DNA from: an uncultured Rubrobacteraceae bacterium
Lineage (GTDB): Bacteria; Actinomycetota; Rubrobacteria; Rubrobacterales; Rubrobacteraceae
NCBI GenBank assembly: GCA_902806095.1
Contig: CADCVF010000072.1
Coordinates: 1 to 61,631 of the forward strand
Direction of reading: 5' to 3'
DNA length: 61,631 bases
Shown here: positions 22,573-48,965 of the stretch, one piece after another
How the letters are laid out: every line of letters begins with the position of its first letter
Numbering within the stretch: position 1 is the first letter of the stretch
Notes under the pieces: model-generated
Seen by the model: only the letters and a program-made list of their open reading frames with translations
What the model was told of the DNA's origin: nothing
Database searches by the model: none
Translations under genes and position numbers: made by a program

Positions 22573-23031
22573 TTATTGATACTGTTGCTGAGAAGGTGGC
22601 GGTGGCTCAGGAGCTGAGCCGGAAGGTGAGTCTGCAGCTGAGCCGGCCTCCGAACCAGACTCACTACGTGCCTCAAGACCTGACTTACTACCGGCCTCAG
22701 AACCTGACTTATCACTAACCCCAGAAACTGACTCACTAATTGCCTCCGAATCAGACTTACTACTATCCTCAGGAACCTCAGGACCTGACTTACTACCAGC
22801 CTCAGAACCTGACTCCCCGATAGCCTCAGATACTGACTTACCAATAACTTCGGGAACTGACTTACTAATAGCCTCAGGAAGGGAGGTGCCAAGAGAGTGT
22901 ACGTTCGCGATGAGCGGCGTCACCCTGGGCACAAAGATGCCGAAGTACAATAAAACGTTGATGGTCAAGGCGACCACCCCAACGACGAGCACGACCATCG
23001 GCTTGTTCAGCGCCTGCTCTAACCTACTCAC
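22573..23031 (-). CDS. Single-pass membrane protein with octapeptide repeats
   Basis: The 152-residue protein has one membrane segment (about residues 12-34: MVVLVVGVVALTINVLLYFG). A polar tail made of about nine degenerate eight-residue repeats of the form S-K/E-S-x-S-E-A-x follows (SKSVPEVI, GKSVSEAI, GESGSEAG, SKSGPEVP, DKSGSEAG). It ends in a Pro/Gln-rich tip. The repeats correspond to 24-bp DNA units. The tail is probably unstructured or a flexible stalk. I know no family for it. The start is GTG with a weak ribosome site. Confidence 0.6.
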   Translation of the reverse strand: MSRLEQALNKPMVVLVVGVVALTINVLLYFGIFVPRVTPLIANVHSLGTSLPEAISKSVPEVIGKSVSEAIGESGSEAGSKSGPEVPEDSSKSDSEAISESVSGVSDKSGSEAGSKSGLEARSESGSEAGSAADSPSGSAPEPPPPSQQQYQ

Positions 23032-23366: not shown

Positions 23367-25748
23367 GTGAGACGATCCGATGTCGGCTTGGCGGCGCTGC
23401 GGTCCGGGCTCACCCGCTTCGGGCGCTACCTGCGACGCGGAACTGCAGCCTACGGTGTGCTGCTCATAGCACTCCTCCTGACCGTCATCGCCTGGTACTA
23501 CGTGCGCCAGACCGTCGAAGTGCAGAACCGCGCCCGTTTCGAGGAGAGCACCCAGGCCACCCAGGAGGCCCTGGAGCGCCGCACCAAAGCCTACCTCGAC
23601 GCGATGTTCGGCGCCCGCGGCCTGTTCTACGCCTCCGACTCGGTCACCCAGGAGGATTGGAGCGACTACGTCAAGGGCATCGAGCCAGCCAGCCGCTTCG
23701 AGGGTCTACAAGCCCTGGGCTACGCCCAGAGGGTGGATCCCGAGGACAGAGAGTCTTTCATGCGCAAGTCTCGGGACGAGGGGCTGCCAGGGATGCGGCC
23801 TGATCTGGACCCCGGTGGGGAGCGTTCGGCGTATTTCCCCCTAACCTACGTAGCTCCCATTGGCGAGGCCAACCAGAGCATGCTCGACTACGATTTCTAT
23901 GCTGAGGATGCGCATAGGGAGCCTATGGACCTGGCGCGCGATAGCGGAGAGCCGCGGGCTACAAACATGGTCTACGTACTGAGTGAGGCCCACCCTGACG
24001 ACATAGCTAATCTCGCCTTACGACGGGGTTTTGTCGTCTACCTCCCGATCTACCAAGAGAGGGAGCCGCTAGGGAGTGTCGGTGAGCGTCGGCGCGCGCT
24101 CAGAGGGTTCATCGTCGGATCGTTCGTAAGCGACGAGCTACTCGATGGGATTTTCAAGGGATCCTTCGACCCAGCGATAGATTTCGAGGCCTACGACGGC
24201 GGGAGCATAGCCTCGAGCCCACTGCTCTACGATCGCGACGGCATAAGACGCGACGAGAAGAAGAGAAATTCGTTCCTCTTCTTCAAAGAGACCCAAATAA
24301 GGGTGGCCGGACGCGTGTGGACGCTGTACTTTACTACGCTGCCGGCTTTCGAGGAGGGGGCCGAGAGCAACCTGCCTCCCTTCGTGCTTGCGAGCGGCCT
24401 TATGTTGAGCCTGCTGATCTTCGGTATCACCTTGATGGTGGTGCGCAGCCGCTCTAGAGCTGAGATCTACAGCGAAGACTTGGAGGTGGCCAACAAGGAG
24501 CTGGAGAGCTTCTACAACTCGGTCGAGCAGGAACTAGGGACGGCGCGGAGCATCCAGCACGCCCTGCTCCCCAAGGACTTGCCCAAGCTCGATGGCTGGA
24601 AGATAGCCTACCACTACCAACCCGCACGGGAGGTTGGTGGCGACTTCTACGATTTCCTTCCTTTGGACGGGGGTCGTATTGGGCTCGTCATCGGCGACGT
24701 CTCAGGCAAGGGTATTGCGGCGGCCCTGGTGATGGCCAACACCCAGAGCGTGCTTCGTGCTATCGCCCGAAGAGGAAACATCGCCCCAGGGCGGGTATTG
24801 GCGGAGGCCAACGAGGTGCTATATGCGTACATCCCGGCCGGCACGTTCGTCACCTGCTTCTATGGCGTCCTCGATCCGGAGAGTGGCCGGCTCCTCTACG
24901 CCAACGCCGGCCACGACCCCCCCTATATGCAGCGGGCCGGCGACGCACAGGAGCTAATAGCGAGGGGGATGCCACTCGGTTTGATGCCCGGCATGCCATA
25001 CGAGGAAAAAGAGGCCGATCTCGCCGCGGGGGACGATCTCCTGTTCTACAGCGATGGGCTGGTAGAGGCTCACGACTCTGAAGGCGAGATGTTCGGCTTC
25101 CCGCGCCTTCGAGATCTGGTCATGGTCCAGAGTGCCGGAAGCGGCGAGGAGCTCGTCGACTTTCTACTGGCCGAGCTGACCCGCTTCACGGGCGAGGACT
25201 CCGAGCAGGAGGACGACATAACCCTGGTCACCCTGGAGAGATCCAGGGCTGGCATCAAGGATCGCAAGACCCAGGTGCAACCGTATGCGACGGATAGTGA
25301 CGGCGACAGGCGAGCCCTCGCGGACTTCACCCTTCCTAGCGAGCCGGGCAACGAACGCCTGGCGATGGAGAAGGTCGCCGAGGCGGTGAACGAACTCGGT
25401 CTTTCCGGACGACGCCTGGATAGGCTCAAGACCGCTGTGGCCGAGGCGACGATGAACGCCATGGAGCACGGCAACAGGTACGATCCCAAAGTCCCCGTCA
25501 GGATCCAAATCTGGCTCCTGAAGGAACGCTTGTTGGTGCGCATCATCGACCGGGGGAGCGGTCCTCTACCGAGTCCGACAGCGATTGGACCGGACCTGCA
25601 GGCCAAGCTGGGGGGTACGCAGACGGCGCGGGGTTGGGGTCTGTTCCTGATCGAGCGCATGGTCGATGAGGTCCGCGTCTCGGGAAACCCGGATCATCAC
25701 ACCGTCGAACTGGTAATGCGCCTGGAAGCAGGCAAAGATGCCAGCTAA
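23367..25748 (+). CDS. CHASE-sensor SpoIIE-type phosphatase with anti-sigma ATPase domain
   Basis: This 793-residue protein links an extracellular sensor to partner-switching control. TM1 is at about residues 29-48. A CHASE domain follows to about 330 (SDSVTQEDWSDYVKGIEP, YFPLTYVAPIGEAN, GFVVYLPIYQ), then TM2 at about 338-360. The SpoIIE/RsbU PP2C domain spans about 385-630, with metal residues in REVGGDFYDFLPL, IGDVSGKGI, YANAGHDPP and EQEDDITLVTL. The C-terminal HATPase_c_2 domain (about 660-790) has VAEATMNAMEHGN and IDRGSG, as in RsbW-type anti-sigma kinases. One protein thus holds both the phosphatase and the opposing kinase-like module. The start is GTG. Confidence 0.95.
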   Translation: MRRSDVGLAALRSGLTRFGRYLRRGTAAYGVLLIALLLTVIAWYYVRQTVEVQNRARFEESTQATQEALERRTKAYLDAMFGARGLFYASDSVTQEDWSDYVKGIEPASRFEGLQALGYAQRVDPEDRESFMRKSRDEGLPGMRPDLDPGGERSAYFPLTYVAPIGEANQSMLDYDFYAEDAHREPMDLARDSGEPRATNMVYVLSEAHPDDIANLALRRGFVVYLPIYQEREPLGSVGERRRALRGFIVGSFVSDELLDGIFKGSFDPAIDFEAYDGGSIASSPLLYDRDGIRRDEKKRNSFLFFKETQIRVAGRVWTLYFTTLPAFEEGAESNLPPFVLASGLMLSLLIFGITLMVVRSRSRAEIYSEDLEVANKELESFYNSVEQELGTARSIQHALLPKDLPKLDGWKIAYHYQPAREVGGDFYDFLPLDGGRIGLVIGDVSGKGIAAALVMANTQSVLRAIARRGNIAPGRVLAEANEVLYAYIPAGTFVTCFYGVLDPESGRLLYANAGHDPPYMQRAGDAQELIARGMPLGLMPGMPYEEKEADLAAGDDLLFYSDGLVEAHDSEGEMFGFPRLRDLVMVQSAGSGEELVDFLLAELTRFTGEDSEQEDDITLVTLERSRAGIKDRKTQVQPYATDSDGDRRALADFTLPSEPGNERLAMEKVAEAVNELGLSGRRLDRLKTAVAEATMNAMEHGNRYDPKVPVRIQIWLLKERLLVRIIDRGSGPLPSPTAIGPDLQAKLGGTQTARGWGLFLIERMVDEVRVSGNPDHHTVELVMRLEAGKDAS

Positions 25749-25878
25749 ACACTTAAGGACGAGCGGGCTAGCTGCAAGCTTCTCCTGAGAAACGGTGTCC
25801 TGGGAAGTTCGTGCCGGTAATTTTGTGGCCTCTAGAGTCCGTACGCCACCAGGATCATTTGCTCGTGGCGGTCCGCGA

Positions 25879-26187
25879 TCACGGCTCTGGATGCGTCAAT
25901 CGTGCGTGGTAGACCTCATACCTCTCGACTTCTGTGACCGTGCCTTCGGTGACTTCGGCACCGAAGACTCGAAACCAGTGCGAGGCCTCGTCGGTGGCAT
26001 GCATCTTTTGCTCGTCTTCCCACAGGCTCACTACGAGCATCTTGCCGCCCTCCGGGTTGCCAAGGAGCAAGAGGCCACTGTAACCAATCTGCATCCTGAG
26101 CGCCGGAATCACATGCTCTTCGATCTCACGGTGTCCCTGTTGGAGTCGCTCCGGACGTACGTCGAACTGGGTTACCCGCGCGAACAT
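25879..26187 (-). CDS. Antibiotic biosynthesis monooxygenase (ABM)-domain protein, copy 1
   Basis: The 102-residue protein is a ferredoxin-like ABM monomer: MFARVTQFDVRPERLQQG, GYSGLLLLGNPEGGKMLVV, SLWEDEQKMHATDEASHWF. Such proteins act as small dimeric monooxygenases or heme- or quinone-handling proteins; the substrate here is unknown. The ATG at 26187 is preceded by GGTGGGG, and the frame upstream of it is Arg-rich and not conserved. It converges on the CHASE phosphatase gene. A paralogue at 30018 has the same arrangement and a similar upstream region. Confidence 0.8.
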   Translation of the reverse strand: MFARVTQFDVRPERLQQGHREIEEHVIPALRMQIGYSGLLLLGNPEGGKMLVVSLWEDEQKMHATDEASHWFRVFGAEVTEGTVTEVERYEVYHARLTHPEP

Positions 26188-26396
26188 GGCCCCACCGCCT
26201 TTCCACCTTGATCCCTGGCCCCTCCCATTATGGCGTACTTTTTGGATGCGTGTATGGGGATCTCGTCGGTTCAAGCTCCTGGAGTGGGACGTGCGCTGAC
26301 AACTTTGCGATCGCGATCGACCTTCACGCCCGGTACGAGATCGCACTTCAGTCTAGTAAGCTCCGACGCTATTTCCGGAGGTTACAAACAGGATCG

Positions 26397-28223
26397 TTAG
26401 TCGGCCAGCTCCAGCTGCTCGACCCTCTCCCTGAGATCTTGGATCTGCGCGGCCTGGGTCGTCAACAGGGTGGCTAACAGGAGTTCATGGGCGGCCTCCA
26501 TCGGCCCGAGGTCGACATCGCTAGCCGCAGAACGTCCATGCACCCTGCGTCCGTGGACTCTGCGTCCATGCACCCTGCGTCCGTGCACCCTTCGAGTCTG
26601 CCCTCCTACCGACCTGACGGCACTCTCCGCGTCGAGCCGGCCGTATCCGTAGAGGCGACTGTGGCCCTGCTCATCGTACTTGCCGCCTCCCGGATCGATC
26701 TGCTCGCAAGAGATCCGCAGAACATCCTTCACCTGGTCCCTGGAGAGCGACGGATTGCAGGATAGCACCAGAGCCGCCACGCCCGCCGCACCCGGACAGG
26801 CGCTCGAGGTCCCGCCGAAAGAATTCGTGTAGTCGTTGTTACTGTAGCCGGGTCTCCCCGTGCGATCGGTGGTCCAGATCCCCGGCGTCAGCGGCACAGG
26901 ACGATTCTCCTTGGGATACTCGAAGTCGTTGCTAGGAAAGGCGCAAAATACAGCGTTTCCGAAATCACTGTAGACACTGCGCACACTCCGGTCGTTGGAG
27001 GCGGCGACGGCCAGTACTCTTTCGTAGCTGGCATACCCATCATTGTCCACGCTCTCGTTGCCGTTGCCGGCCGCGAATAACACCACACAGCCCTTGCCGC
27101 CTCGACCACGGCTAACCGCGTAGTCGAGGGCCAACCGTGTGCTGTCGGGCAGGGGAGCTACCGCCTTATGAAGAGGATCGTCGGGCTTCCACCACCTCCC
27201 GTCTGCGGGACCCCAACTACACGAGATGACATCCGCGCCGTTCTCCGCAGCCCAGTAGAAGGCATTCGCTTCCTCCTGAGATCCTAGTTGTGACATCATC
27301 CGTATTGGCATGAGCTTTGCCCGAGGCGCCACGCCGGAGGCCCCGAACCTTCCGTCGGCGCAAGCCACGCCCGCACAGGCGGTACCGTGATTCTCATCGC
27401 GACCACCGGGGCGGGGATCTGCGTCGTTTGCGGTGGTGTCTCGAGGTGCGACGAGCTTGCCCGGGCTGGAGAACTCGTCATGATCTATATCGGTTCCCGT
27501 GTCGATGATGGCTATTGTGGCGCCTTCACCTTCGGTGATGGTGTGGGCGGCTTCGACATTCGCGCTGGCGTTGACCCACTGGCCACCGATCGTGGTCGAC
27601 TTGAGATGCCACTGCTGCGGGGAAATGGTGCGTTGAGCCAGACGCCGCACCAGTTCGGGATTGCAATACTCGACGTCTTTACGCTCCAGCAATCTGTTTG
27701 CGATAACGAAGACTTCCTGGCCCGACCCTTCCGGGGCAGCGACGAAGTACGCGTTGGTAGCGTAAGGAAGTTCTTGTTTGACACTCAAGCCTTCTGCACG
27801 CAGAACCTCCAAACATTGTCCCCGCTTCTTGTCGTCGAGGAACTTGATAAACAGGTTCTCGGTGTAGACCACCGGCTCGCCGGTCTCCTCATCCACCAAC
27901 ACGCGGCCAGCGAAACGCGTGGCCGGGGATTCGTGCAATTTCCGCCGCACTTCTTCCATGGCACCTGACGACTGTTCGGGACGACGATAGACTTCTACGC
28001 CGACCTGTGGAAAGCTCAAGACAGACTCCATGTCGTCCAGAAGTGCGGCTTCAGGGGGCGTAACAGGCCCTTCCCGAAGCGACCTGCCACGGCGTGCGCG
28101 TACCGCCACCAGGGCAGGGTCGACCTTGAACGTGACCGTCTCGCCATTCTCGCCGCCGTACGTGACCTCCCGCGTGATGTCTTCCATTTGCAGCCACACC
28201 CCCATTCCCAAAAAGAGCTCCAT
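26397..28223 (-). CDS. Subtilisin-like serine protease (S8) with C-terminal coiled coil
   Basis: The protease domain has the triad Asp241 (IIDTGTDID), His279 (ENHGTACAG) and Ser473 (FGGTSSACPGAAG), with oxyanion Asn387 in AAGNGN. The first 200 residues include a fervidolysin-like propeptide region (TENLFIKFLDDKKRG, YFVAAPEGSGQEVFVIANRL). No signal peptide is visible, which is unusual for a subtilase, so it may act inside the cell or use another route. After the catalytic domain four VHGRR-type pentapeptides lead to a 34-residue helix (LLLATLLTTQAAQIQDLRER) likely to oligomerise. The start may be 28223 or an internal Met at 28187. TTGACA lies at 28246-28251 on the coding strand. It sits between two phosphatase/ABM modules. 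Confidence 0.93.
   Translation of the reverse strand: MELFLGMGVWLQMEDITREVTYGGENGETVTFKVDPALVAVRARRGRSLREGPVTPPEAALLDDMESVLSFPQVGVEVYRRPEQSSGAMEEVRRKLHESPATRFAGRVLVDEETGEPVVYTENLFIKFLDDKKRGQCLEVLRAEGLSVKQELPYATNAYFVAAPEGSGQEVFVIANRLLERKDVEYCNPELVRRLAQRTISPQQWHLKSTTIGGQWVNASANVEAAHTITEGEGATIAIIDTGTDIDHDEFSSPGKLVAPRDTTANDADPRPGGRDENHGTACAGVACADGRFGASGVAPRAKLMPIRMMSQLGSQEEANAFYWAAENGADVISCSWGPADGRWWKPDDPLHKAVAPLPDSTRLALDYAVSRGRGGKGCVVLFAAGNGNESVDNDGYASYERVLAVAASNDRSVRSVYSDFGNAVFCAFPSNDFEYPKENRPVPLTPGIWTTDRTGRPGYSNNDYTNSFGGTSSACPGAAGVAALVLSCNPSLSRDQVKDVLRISCEQIDPGGGKYDEQGHSRLYGYGRLDAESAVRSVGGQTRRVHGRRVHGRRVHGRRVHGRSAASDVDLGPMEAAHELLLATLLTTQAAQIQDLRERVEQLELAD
26533..26592 (-). repeat. Four 15-bp tandem repeats encoding pentapeptides
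   Basis: Four units close to CGTCCATGCACCCTG (plus strand) follow one another in the linker of the subtilase. Units 1 and 3 are identical; units 2 and 4 differ at a few bases. Each encodes a basic pentapeptide, R-V-H-G-R in phase. Confidence 0.9.
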
Positions 28224-28572
28224 AAAGGAACCAGTGTCCGAACCATGTCAATAGTAACAGAGCCCGATGAATCCTCGATGAATATCGAATGAATCAGCGT
28301 GCAAGCGGAAAGAAATGATGGGCGCACCTTCATCTTTGGAGCGATGTGCAGAGGCGTCGACCCACCGCGTACCGCGGATTCAGCCAAGAGCGAACAAGAA
28401 ATGCTGAATGCTGACCAGCTGAAATGCTTGCAAAGCGGGCCTGTTCTCTTTGCAACCCTCGCGGCTGTCGCCTGCTTCGAGGGTGCCCGAGATCATCGTA
28501 GGTTGTACCATGGTCTGGCTCCGACTAATCCTGCCGCGGAGAGCAGCTTTGGCACAAGGAGGACGAGGTTCT
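28224..28572. other. Intergenic stretch between subtilase and SnoaL-SpoIIE gene
   Basis: No gene is seen. It holds divergent promoters, including TTGACA on the minus strand (28246-28251), and a partial copy of the GCTGAC-rich repeat near 28402-28436. Confidence 0.4.
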
Positions 28573-29727
28573 GTGTCGGTGGAAGAGAACAAGGCGCTGG
28601 TTCGCCGCTTCCTGGAGGAGCAGGCCAGGGGGAACCTGGGCGTGATCGACGAGCTGCTCAGCCCGGATTTCGTCGATCGCGGCCTGCTTCCCGGGCAAGG
28701 TCCGACCCGCGAGGACTTCAAGCGGGCCGTAACTGAGATCCTCGAGGCTTTCTCTATCATCAGCTTCACCATCGAGGAGCAGATCGCCGAAGGCGACACG
28801 GTCGTCACCAAGTACTCGGAGAGAAGCGTGATCAGGGGCGAGTTCGCCGGCTTACCCCCTACAGGAACGGAAGAGAACTTCGAAGGCATCTACATCCACC
28901 GCATCTCAGAAGGCAAGATCACCGAGGAGTGGAGCCAGGCGAACACGCTACACACGACGCTGGAGCGGCTTGAGCAGGAGATGAGCGAGCGCGAACGAGT
29001 CGAGCAGGAGCTCAGGGTGGCACAGCGTATTCAGCATGCCTTGCTCCCGAGGAACTTGCCCGAGCTCGAGGGTTGGGAGATTACCCACGCCTACCGGCCT
29101 GCACGAGAGGTCGGCGGCGACTTCTACGACTTCCTCCCCTTATCGGAAGGCCGTTTGGGCCTCATCATAGGCGACGTCTCCGGCAAGGGGATACCTGCGG
29201 CACTGGTGATGGCCAATACCCAGAGCGTACTCCGTGCCATCGCCCGAAGGGGGGACATCGCTCCAGGGCTGGTGCTGGCAGAGGCAAACGAAGTCCTCTT
29301 TACATACCTCCCGCCAAACATGTTCGCCACCTGCTTCTACGCCGTCCTCGACCCTGCGGAAGGTCGGCTGCGATACGCCAACGCCGGCCACAACCTACCG
29401 TGCTGCTGGCACGAGGGTGTGGCGACCGAACTCAGGGCGAGCGGGATGCCCCTTGGCCTCATGCCAGCCATGGACTACGAGGAGAAGGAGAGAACCCTCG
29501 TCCCGGGAGATGGCGTGCTCCTCTACAGCGATGGATTGGTCGAGGCCCACGACCCGCAGCGTGAGATGTTCGGTACTTCACGAATGGTGGAGTTTGTTGG
29601 TGCCAACCCGGGAAAGACGACGTTGATCGCTTCTCTGCTGGCCGAGTTGAGGCAGTTCGCCGGAGAAGGGTGGGAGCAAGAAGATGACATTACTTTGTTG
29701 ACCCTCCAGAGACATCGGTCCTCGTAA
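28573..29727 (+). CDS. SnoaL-like/SpoIIE-type phosphatase fusion
   Basis: The 384-residue protein joins a SnoaL/ester-cyclase-type alpha+beta barrel (about residues 1-135: ENKALVRRFLEEQARGNLGV, GPTREDFKRAVTEILEAF, EEQIAEGDTVVTKY) to a SpoIIE PP2C domain (about 150-384). The linker is a short coiled coil (LERLEQEMSERERVEQEL). Metal-site motifs are intact: REVGGDFYDFLPL, IGDVSGKGI, YANAGHN, EQEDDITLLTL. It has no membrane segment and no anti-sigma ATPase domain, unlike its paralogue at 23367. The SnoaL-like part may bind a small molecule and control dephosphorylation of an anti-anti-sigma factor; that is inference. GTG 28573 follows AAGGAGGA by about nine bases. Confidence 0.93.
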   Translation: MSVEENKALVRRFLEEQARGNLGVIDELLSPDFVDRGLLPGQGPTREDFKRAVTEILEAFSIISFTIEEQIAEGDTVVTKYSERSVIRGEFAGLPPTGTEENFEGIYIHRISEGKITEEWSQANTLHTTLERLEQEMSERERVEQELRVAQRIQHALLPRNLPELEGWEITHAYRPAREVGGDFYDFLPLSEGRLGLIIGDVSGKGIPAALVMANTQSVLRAIARRGDIAPGLVLAEANEVLFTYLPPNMFATCFYAVLDPAEGRLRYANAGHNLPCCWHEGVATELRASGMPLGLMPAMDYEEKERTLVPGDGVLLYSDGLVEAHDPQREMFGTSRMVEFVGANPGKTTLIASLLAELRQFAGEGWEQEDDITLLTLQRHRSS

Positions 29728-30018
29728 CACTTTTCGCACGACTCTAGAGACGGTGGTACTGTAGAGTGTTGTTATGATGCCCGCCTCGGGCCCGAAGACT
29801 AGAAACCAGTGCGAGGCCTCGTCGGTGGCCCGCATCTCTTGCTCCTCCTCCCACAGCGTTACCGAGAGCATCTTGCCGCTCTCTCGGTTGCCGAGGAGCA
29901 GGACGCCACTATAACCAACCTGCATCCTGAACGCCGGGAGGACGTGCTCTTCGATCTCACAGTGTCCCTGTTGCAGGTGCTCGGGGCTTACGTCGAACTT
30001 GTTTACCCGCGCGAACAT
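29578..30018 (-). CDS. ABM-domain protein, copy 2, probably frameshifted at its end
   Basis: The first 80 residues match the ABM protein at 25879-26187 almost position for position (MFARVNKFDVSPEHLQQG, GYSGVLLLGNRESGKML, LWEEEQEMRATDEASHWF). After FGPEAG the frame loses similarity and runs 150 bases into the end of the convergent phosphatase gene, stopping at 29578. A one-base shift would end the protein at about 29744, before the overlap and at the length of the paralogue. A frameshift mutation or sequence error is therefore likely. The ATG has GGTGG upstream. Function as for copy 1, if active. Confidence 0.6.
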   Translation of the reverse strand: MFARVNKFDVSPEHLQQGHCEIEEHVLPAFRMQVGYSGVLLLGNRESGKMLSVTLWEEEQEMRATDEASHWFLVFGPEAGIITTLYSTTVSRVVRKVLRGPMSLEGQQSNVIFLLPPFSGELPQLGQQRSDQRRLSRVGTNKLHHS

Positions 30019-30453
30019 GGCCCCACCACCTTTCCTCCTTGAGGGATGGACTCGCCCATTGTGTCGCAATCCTTGGGTGCATGCATAGGGTAACTGCGGC
30101 GCGGCCGCGGTGCGTCGTCCCAGACTGCTTGTGGAAGGTGTTCATTGTGCTTGCACGCCCCGTCGCGAGAGCGTGCTGCACAACGATGCGCGGTACGTGG
30201 ACAAAGGGCCGCGGGGAGGATGGGGAGAACGCGGCCCTTCCTTGCCTTGTAAGGGGAACTGACCAGCTTCCCCACGTCCGATCTGCGAGGCGGCAGGCGT
30301 GAGTGCCCTACTCTGATGATCGAGACGGCCGCGTAACTCGCCCAGGGAGGGTGATGTCCGCAGACAACCTTGCTTCGAGGCTTGATCTTCGCGCTCGGTA
30401 TGGGCAAACGCGTAGCTGAAGCGCTGATCAGCGCGGGTAGAGGAATGGGTCCT
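30019..30453. other. Intergenic stretch with hairpins
   Basis: No gene is visible. The part next to 30018 resembles the upstream region of the first ABM gene. AAGGGCCGCG (30204-30213) and CGCGGCCCTT (30230-30239) form a perfect 10-bp stem. Confidence 0.4.
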
Positions 30454-31210: not shown

Positions 31211-31282
31211 ACTAGCTGACATGCTGACGAGCGAAGGCCTTAAAGGCCTGAGCGTGCTGACATGCTGACTAGCTAAAATGCT
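31211..31282. repeat. GCTGAC-rich intergenic repeat with hairpin
   Basis: Direct repeats of GCTGACATGCTGAC flank a perfect hairpin, AGGCCTT-A-AAGGCCT, with GAGCG and AGCGTGCTGAC next to the core. The same outer words with different cores recur at 32614, 47705 and 48812. Confidence 0.7.
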
Positions 31283-47704: not shown

Positions 47705-47833
47705 GCACCTCAGCACGGCGCCTGCGGCGCCTTGTCAGCACGCCTGCGAAGCGCCGTGCTGACAAGCGGAGGCCGAAAGGCCGAAGCGTGCTGACAAGCT
47801 GACAAGCGAAGCCCGAAGGGCGCAGCGTGCTAG
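47705..47833. repeat. GCTGAC-rich intergenic repeats, two or more units
   Basis: Units of CGTGCTGACAAGC alternate with hairpins GGCC-GAAA-GGCC and GCCC-GAA-GGGC; an inverted copy (CTTGTCAGCACG) comes first. The array fills the gap between the SDR and LCP genes and touches the first GTG of the LCP frame. Confidence 0.7.
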
Positions 47834-48811: not shown

Positions 48812-48965
48812 AGTCAGCCAGTCAGCACGCCGCCAGGCTTCGCCAGGCGGCTTGTCAGCACTTCAGCTTTCGGATGCGCAGGTCCTGGCTGACAAGCGAA
48901 GGCGAAGCAGGAGCGTGCTGACATGCTGACAAGCGGAGGCCGAAGGCCGGAGCGTGCTGAAATGT
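48812..48965. repeat. GCTGAC-rich intergenic repeats, several units
   Basis: The array has an inverted portion (GTCAGCACGCCGCC...GGCGGCTTGTCAGCAC) and direct portions (GCTGACAAGCGAAGGCG and GCTGACATGCTGACAAGCGG with core GGCCGAAGGCC). It fills the gap between the LCP gene and tRNA-Leu. Confidence 0.7.

Follow-up and report, generated by a model that had tools for sequence, protein, structure and literature searches.

Two neighbouring gene pairs in a Rubrobacteraceae genome, each made up of a SpoIIE-type phosphatase gene and a convergent gene for a small protein of the ABM fold, are not simply two copies of one duplicated module, with gene conversion as an alternative account of the gap in synonymous divergence (dS) between their parts. 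We consider it probable, if far from certain, that the arrangement arose through local expansion of an ABM gene family accompanied by decay, and we favour this account over a selected circuit, an old module modified by gene conversion, and pure chance. The two phosphatases are most likely paralogous stress phosphatases that would feed a single partner-switching pathway.

Organization of the locus

The window, the whole stretch of 61,631 nucleotides analysed here, is part of contig C72; the genome measures 3.83 Mb, and among the genomes compared its close relatives belong to Rubrobacteraceae. Positions 23367 to 30018 hold, in order, SpoIIE1 (+ strand), ABM1 (-), a subtilase (-), SpoIIE2 (+) and ABM2 (-), with SpoIIE1 standing tail-to-tail with ABM1, SpoIIE2 tail-to-tail with ABM2, and the subtilase separating the pairs. 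On the basis of Pfam matches and motifs, SpoIIE1 (23367..25748, + strand; 793 aa) combines a CHASE sensor (E 3e-39), a SpoIIE (PP2C) phosphatase (1.7e-53) and an RsbW-like HATPase_c_2 domain (7.5e-21), whereas SpoIIE2 (28573..29727, + strand; ~384 aa) joins a SnoaL-like domain (2e-22) to a SpoIIE phosphatase (1.6e-52) and has no ATPase. Both phosphatase domains score far above the curated cut-off of 25 bits on PF07228 (181.9 bits for SpoIIE1 and 178.7 for SpoIIE2), and both translations contain GGDFYDF, GDVSGKG, SDGLVEA and EDDITL; the catalytic motifs, whose conserved aspartates we take to be metal-binding, are thus intact. The ATPase domain of SpoIIE1 reaches 74.9 bits (cut-off 27.4) and includes the N-box EATMNAMEHGN, and it falls below the equivalog cut-offs for RsbW/SpoIIAB. 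The SpoIIE2 reading frame is open from 28450; AAGGAGG stands ~10 nt 5' of a GTG at 28573, which on this sequence is the more likely start.

The intervening subtilase (26397..28223, - strand; Peptidase_S8, E 1.1e-42 in Pfam) is mycosin-like, yet well below the mycosin family cut-off, and we do not count it as belonging to the SpoIIE/ABM pair. Its inclusion in a duplicated unit was considered and rejected, as no second subtilase copy adjoins ABM2; the gene standing in that place is a 228 aa ORF with no Pfam matches. Towards its 3' end (26530-26600) the subtilase gene contains a ~15 bp tandem repeat that gives rise to a repeated HGRRV in the protein.

Several further features of the surroundings were observed. 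The G+C content is ~0.58-0.62 between 20000 and 36000, lower than the 0.65-0.68 over the window's opening 10 kb, and on this ground the stretch is possibly younger or acquired. A low-complexity ORF at 22573-23031 repeats units of the SKSGSEA type, with direct repeats 70-76% identical. A dispersed repeat of ~85 bp with short palindromes (AAGCGGAGGCCGAAAGGCCGAAGCGTGCTGACAAG...) occurs at 47745-47831, at 48875-48958 and at about 31215-31276, one copy thus lying ~1.2 kb from ABM2; at least 58 matches are spread through the genome on many contigs, a count based on scoring 40 of 236 candidates, and the repeat is REP- or MITE-like, with no Rfam match at its sites. Neither terminators nor structured elements found support in the convergent intergenic regions, whose z-scores were -0.96 and +1.14, and a promoter scan placed no site in the ABM upstream blocks, finding one site in 4.9 kb where 1.2 were expected.

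Unequal ages of the ABM and SpoIIE copies

The DNA of ABM1 (25879..26187, - strand) and ABM2 (29779..30018, - strand) shares a block of 305 bp that is 82% identical and comprises 233 bp of coding sequence together with 72 bp upstream of the ATG. The upstream segments (26188..26259 for ABM1, including its ribosome-binding region, and 30019..30090 for ABM2, both on the - strand) align without gaps at 53 of 72 identical positions. The alignment score is 49; 2000 shuffles gave a mean of 15.0 (sd 2.2, maximum 25), and no other gene start in the window scored above 22. This shared DNA points to descent rather than coincidence. Synonymous divergence between ABM1 and ABM2 is ~0.33-0.41, as against 1.37, a value near saturation, between the SpoIIE domains, and identity at third codon positions differs likewise (59 of 76 for ABM, 122 of 240 for SpoIIE; Fisher p 3e-5), which argues that the ABM and SpoIIE copies diverged at different times. 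Either the copying of ABM with its upstream DNA is younger than the split of the SpoIIE genes, or the ABM genes have stayed alike through gene conversion.

The SpoIIE domains themselves are 74% identical in DNA over 579 bp, and the 3' end that adjoins ABM is no more alike between the copies than the remainder of the domain. SpoIIE1 and SpoIIE2 form one clade with a SnoaL-SpoIIE protein of another genus (L088 of genome G008; support 100/98). Within it, SpoIIE2 and L088 appear as sisters with support of 83/76, and the AU test does not reject a tree that joins SpoIIE1 to SpoIIE2 instead (p 0.10), so that SpoIIE2 tends to group with the protein of the other genus no less well than with SpoIIE1. 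An earlier note on this DNA had described a SpoIIE phosphatase followed by a convergent ABM gene twice around a subtilase, a difference in sensor and ATPase domains between the phosphatases, and similar DNA upstream of both ABM genes; domains, coordinates and alignments bear out all of these observations. Its further claim of one module copied twice is at odds with the dS values given above and with a third pair, described below, whose SpoIIE gene belongs to another clade.

A third pair and a private ABM family

A third tail-to-tail pair was identified on contig C46 of the same genome, where an ABM gene (74074-74271, + strand) that has lost its 5' part faces a SpoIIE fragment (74442-74681, - strand) reduced to approximately its final 70 codons and interrupted by an in-frame TAG; judged from its sequence, the pair is a decayed remnant. 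The DNA of this fragment shares 82% identity with L092, 75% with the genome's own SpoIIE gene on contig C35, 73% with SpoIIE1 and 68% with SpoIIE2, and the fragment belongs to the core GAF-SpoIIE clade, not to that of the window SpoIIE genes. No conserved synteny was found between the C46 locus and SpoIIE loci elsewhere. An isolated SpoIIE 3' fragment of ~60 codons is also present on contig C39 (29521-29703), with no ABM gene nearby, and SpoIIE genes of this genome would thus appear to have decayed to 3' remnants more than once.

The four ABM copies of this genome, two in the window and one each on C46 and contig C21, constitute a single clade (support 95/82) that was found in this genome only. 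At least three of the four stand behind SpoIIE genes, and these are of three different descents; two of the three SpoIIE-adjoining copies, ABM2 and the C46 ABM, are damaged. The C21 gene was considered as a fourth pair and rejected: its downstream neighbour is a 2TM-like gene, with no SpoIIE. On the upstream side the contig breaks off. Members of the clade share an SHWFRVF-like stretch, with the variants AHWFRAF and SHWLRIF in the C21 and C46 copies, respectively.

Fold and fate of the ABM proteins

With 102 aa, ABM1 scores 22.3 bits on PF03992, marginally below the curated cut-off of 23.1. Its AlphaFold2 model (mean pLDDT 92.7) has the ABM-type ferredoxin-like fold and matches 1iuj, 3e8o, YgiN, MhuD and SnoaB in the PDB, with TT1380 (1iuj; Foldseek E 2.5e-5) and DR_2100 (3e8o) nearest; as modelled, ABM1 clearly adopts the ABM fold despite its sub-cut-off Pfam score. 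Heme-degrading ABM proteins of the IsdG/MhuD type presumably require an Asn near residue 7, a Trp, and a His ~9-10 residues past the Trp. In paralog alignments ABM1 shows Q7, W56, T65 and D66, with H70 as the single paralog-conserved His, and a heme-degrading role was rejected because these residues misfit the assumed triad positions in the sequence alignment. ABM1 thus shares the fold of MhuD and SnoaB, but in its clade the heme-degrading Asn and His and the residues of SnoaB-type oxygenases were not seen at the expected places, which leaves an enzymatic role of ABM1 uncertain.

ABM2 has no Pfam match by its own sequence and is recognized by its homology to ABM1 residues 1 to ~77-80 (74% identity over residues 1-84). 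The homology block stops abruptly at ABM1 codon 77, leaving ABM2 without a counterpart of the last ~25 codons, and the frame continues as unrelated sequence to 29578, antisense over the 3' end of SpoIIE2. Since the final beta strand of the ABM1 model (residues 83-91) falls in the missing part, ABM2 is probably non-functional at present. The part that survives does not look long neglected at the sequence level: the branch lengths of ABM1 and ABM2 are equal (0.15 each) and changes are concentrated in third codon positions, which suggests that ABM2 was constrained for most of its life.

Distribution of SpoIIE/ABM pairs in other genomes

Across 39 genomes of the family, the coordinates of 113 SpoIIE matches were compared with those of 177 ABM matches listed. 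Most of the listed ABM genes have no SpoIIE neighbour; 5 of the 177 lie within 1 kb of one, and all five pairs are convergent, three in the genome studied here and one each in the sister genomes G002 and G003 of genus g3. By chance, 0.5 such pairs would be expected among the listed matches in any orientation and ~0.12 in the convergent one, given per-genome means of ~4.5 listed ABM matches and 3 SpoIIE genes; the genome studied here has 8 and 10, respectively. Two independent convergent events correspond to p ~0.007, a value weakened by the window pair being the discovery case, so that fresh evidence for the pairing consists of the g3 pairs and C46 only. In the g3 pairs, both the ABM and the SpoIIE gene belong to clades other than those seen here. 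The phosphatase of G003 (L136:8917-11919; G002 counterpart L137:7228-10415) comprises LOV-like PAS, GAF and SpoIIE domains, as scanned in G003; its gene is divergent from an Fe/Mn superoxide dismutase gene and convergent with ABM, which makes the locus a candidate for responses to light or oxidative stress.

Searches beyond the family added no further pairs: a scan of ~85,000 species returned 33 loci of this ABM group, with a SpoIIE pair at one, on the same G003 contig, and a phylum search found SpoIIE adjoining only the present and the G003 loci among 25 ABM loci checked. The commonest neighbours of ABM genes in the family are SnoaL genes (5 of 119 scanned neighbours), with five SnoaL/ABM pairs no more than 1 kb apart where 0.9 would be expected (p 0.002), a signal that is only modest, though commoner than that of SpoIIE with ABM. 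In general, the ABM-SpoIIE association is rare, recurrent and weakly supported.

Partner switching and relationship to known systems

A complete partner-switch operon is present on C35 and encodes a GAF-SpoIIE protein, an RsbW-like protein and two STAS proteins. It shares the phosphatase family with the window genes, and its RsbW-like ATPase is 63% identical to the fused domain of SpoIIE1, but its components are separate genes, its sensor is GAF, and no ABM gene adjoins it. Only three STAS genes were found in the genome, two on C35 and one on contig C59, none near the window genes. Going by their families, SpoIIE1 and SpoIIE2 would dephosphorylate STAS anti-anti-sigma proteins, which the RsbW-like domain of SpoIIE1 may phosphorylate, and the STAS proteins of C35 and C59 are the likely partners. 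The two phosphatases would then act as additional input arms to the C35 pathway, one extracytoplasmic through CHASE and the other through a SnoaL-type domain presumed to sense a ligand.

All parts of the locus are known families. Rv1364c, which we take to combine a sensor, a SpoIIE phosphatase and an anti-sigma ATPase, is among the PDB matches of the SpoIIE2 phosphatase domain. Like this RsbU/SpoIIE-type protein with its fused RsbW-like domain (PDB 3ke6), SpoIIE1 unites sensor, phosphatase and anti-sigma ATPase in one chain, but it senses through CHASE and has no STAS domain, and SpoIIE2 has neither ATPase nor STAS. Fusions of SnoaL to SpoIIE were found on three contigs of this genome (C72, C82 and C19) and in three others (G007:C238, G008:C357 and G017:C249). 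In the G017 protein the SnoaL domain is 69% identical to that of SpoIIE2, with a SpoIIE domain only 62% identical to that of SpoIIE1, a sequence pattern that hints at domain exchange. NTF2-like SnoaL_2 domains are also fused to the ECF sigma factors ECF41 and ECF56, where they are thought to be regulatory (PMC7730460); these fusions provide a precedent for SnoaL as a built-in regulator of transcription-stress proteins, the partner in SpoIIE2 being a SpoIIE phosphatase. The literature searched, which omits most subscription journals, contained no SpoIIE-ABM pairing, no SnoaL-SpoIIE fusion and no partner switching in Rubrobacter; for pairing and fusion, this silence is not proof of novelty.

Discussion

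Under local expansion with decay, ABM stands apart from the phosphatases as one of a private four-copy family, with convergent transcription, and reached its positions behind SpoIIE genes through repeated copying or recombination on a local scale rather than through a single duplication of a fixed cassette; its copies would be decaying, as the loss of the ABM2 3' end and the C46 remnant suggest. We infer no obligate functional link between ABM and SpoIIE. Some observations pull the other way: that three of four ABM paralogs stand behind SpoIIE genes of different lineages is hard to obtain by random dispersal and could reflect selection for the pairing, an independent convergent pair exists in g3, and the dS gap could have arisen from gene conversion between the ABM genes after a true duplication of the module. 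An old single SpoIIE-ABM duplication of this kind would explain the identical order and orientation of copies 3.8 kb apart and the likeness reaching 72 bp upstream of ABM, and a sister relationship of the two SpoIIE genes is compatible with the AU test. We nevertheless think it rather improbable, given the approximately fourfold difference in synonymous divergence, the C46 SpoIIE gene of another clade, an ABM-adjoining SpoIIE 3' end that is no more conserved than the rest, and the need to add replacement of the sensor in one phosphatase. Accidental adjacency of two gene families that are both multi-copy in Rubrobacteraceae predicts some pairs, and for g3 alone, where the probability of at least one such pair is ~0.12, it is possible; for the genome studied here, with its three pairs, the convergence of all five listed pairs and upstream DNA indicative of descent, it is disfavoured, and as a general explanation it is scarcely credible.

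A functional module, in which ABM removes or makes a small molecule (a quinone, an aromatic or a reactive product) read by the SpoIIE sensor and selection keeps the pair together, is unlikely in our estimation. It would accommodate the uniformly convergent pairs in two independent lineages, the superoxide dismutase gene beside the g3 pair, SnoaL, the sensor domain of SpoIIE2, as the commonest ABM neighbour, and the conservation of ABM2 and its upstream region before truncation; tail-to-tail transcription could add antisense coupling. However, the genes, being convergent, are not co-transcribed, hardly any of the genomes that carry this ABM group have the pair, damage affects two of the three copies here, ABM1 was not found to have the residues of heme-degrading or SnoaB-type enzymes, and the discovery case contributes no fresh evidence. 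The link of ABM to the phosphatases or a sigma factor proposed in the earlier note fares poorly for similar reasons, including the many family ABM genes with no SpoIIE neighbour. Of its suggested oxidative-stress role, a hint survives in the g3 superoxide dismutase gene, with nothing beyond g3. The genome search it called for did reveal SpoIIE/ABM neighbours elsewhere, in G002 and G003, and the upstream likeness exceeded chance, so that neither outcome it named as refuting came about; its statement that the pairing was previously undescribed agrees with the literature searched.

Together these results illustrate that an apparent duplicated module can combine parts of different age, and they document a sensor design that recurs in Rubrobacteraceae, the fusion of SnoaL to SpoIIE, which parallels the SnoaL-fused ECF sigma factors. 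A bolder proposal, which we regard as a long shot, is that ABM is an enzyme acting on small molecules, or a carrier of ligands, dedicated to SpoIIE proteins that sense through SnoaL, CHASE or LOV domains, and that convergent pairing has been selected in Rubrobacteraceae as a stress circuit on two or more independent occasions. If true, small ABM proteins, a large family whose members are for the most part uncharacterised, would be connected with general-stress signalling, and one could begin to guess which signals their ligands convey.
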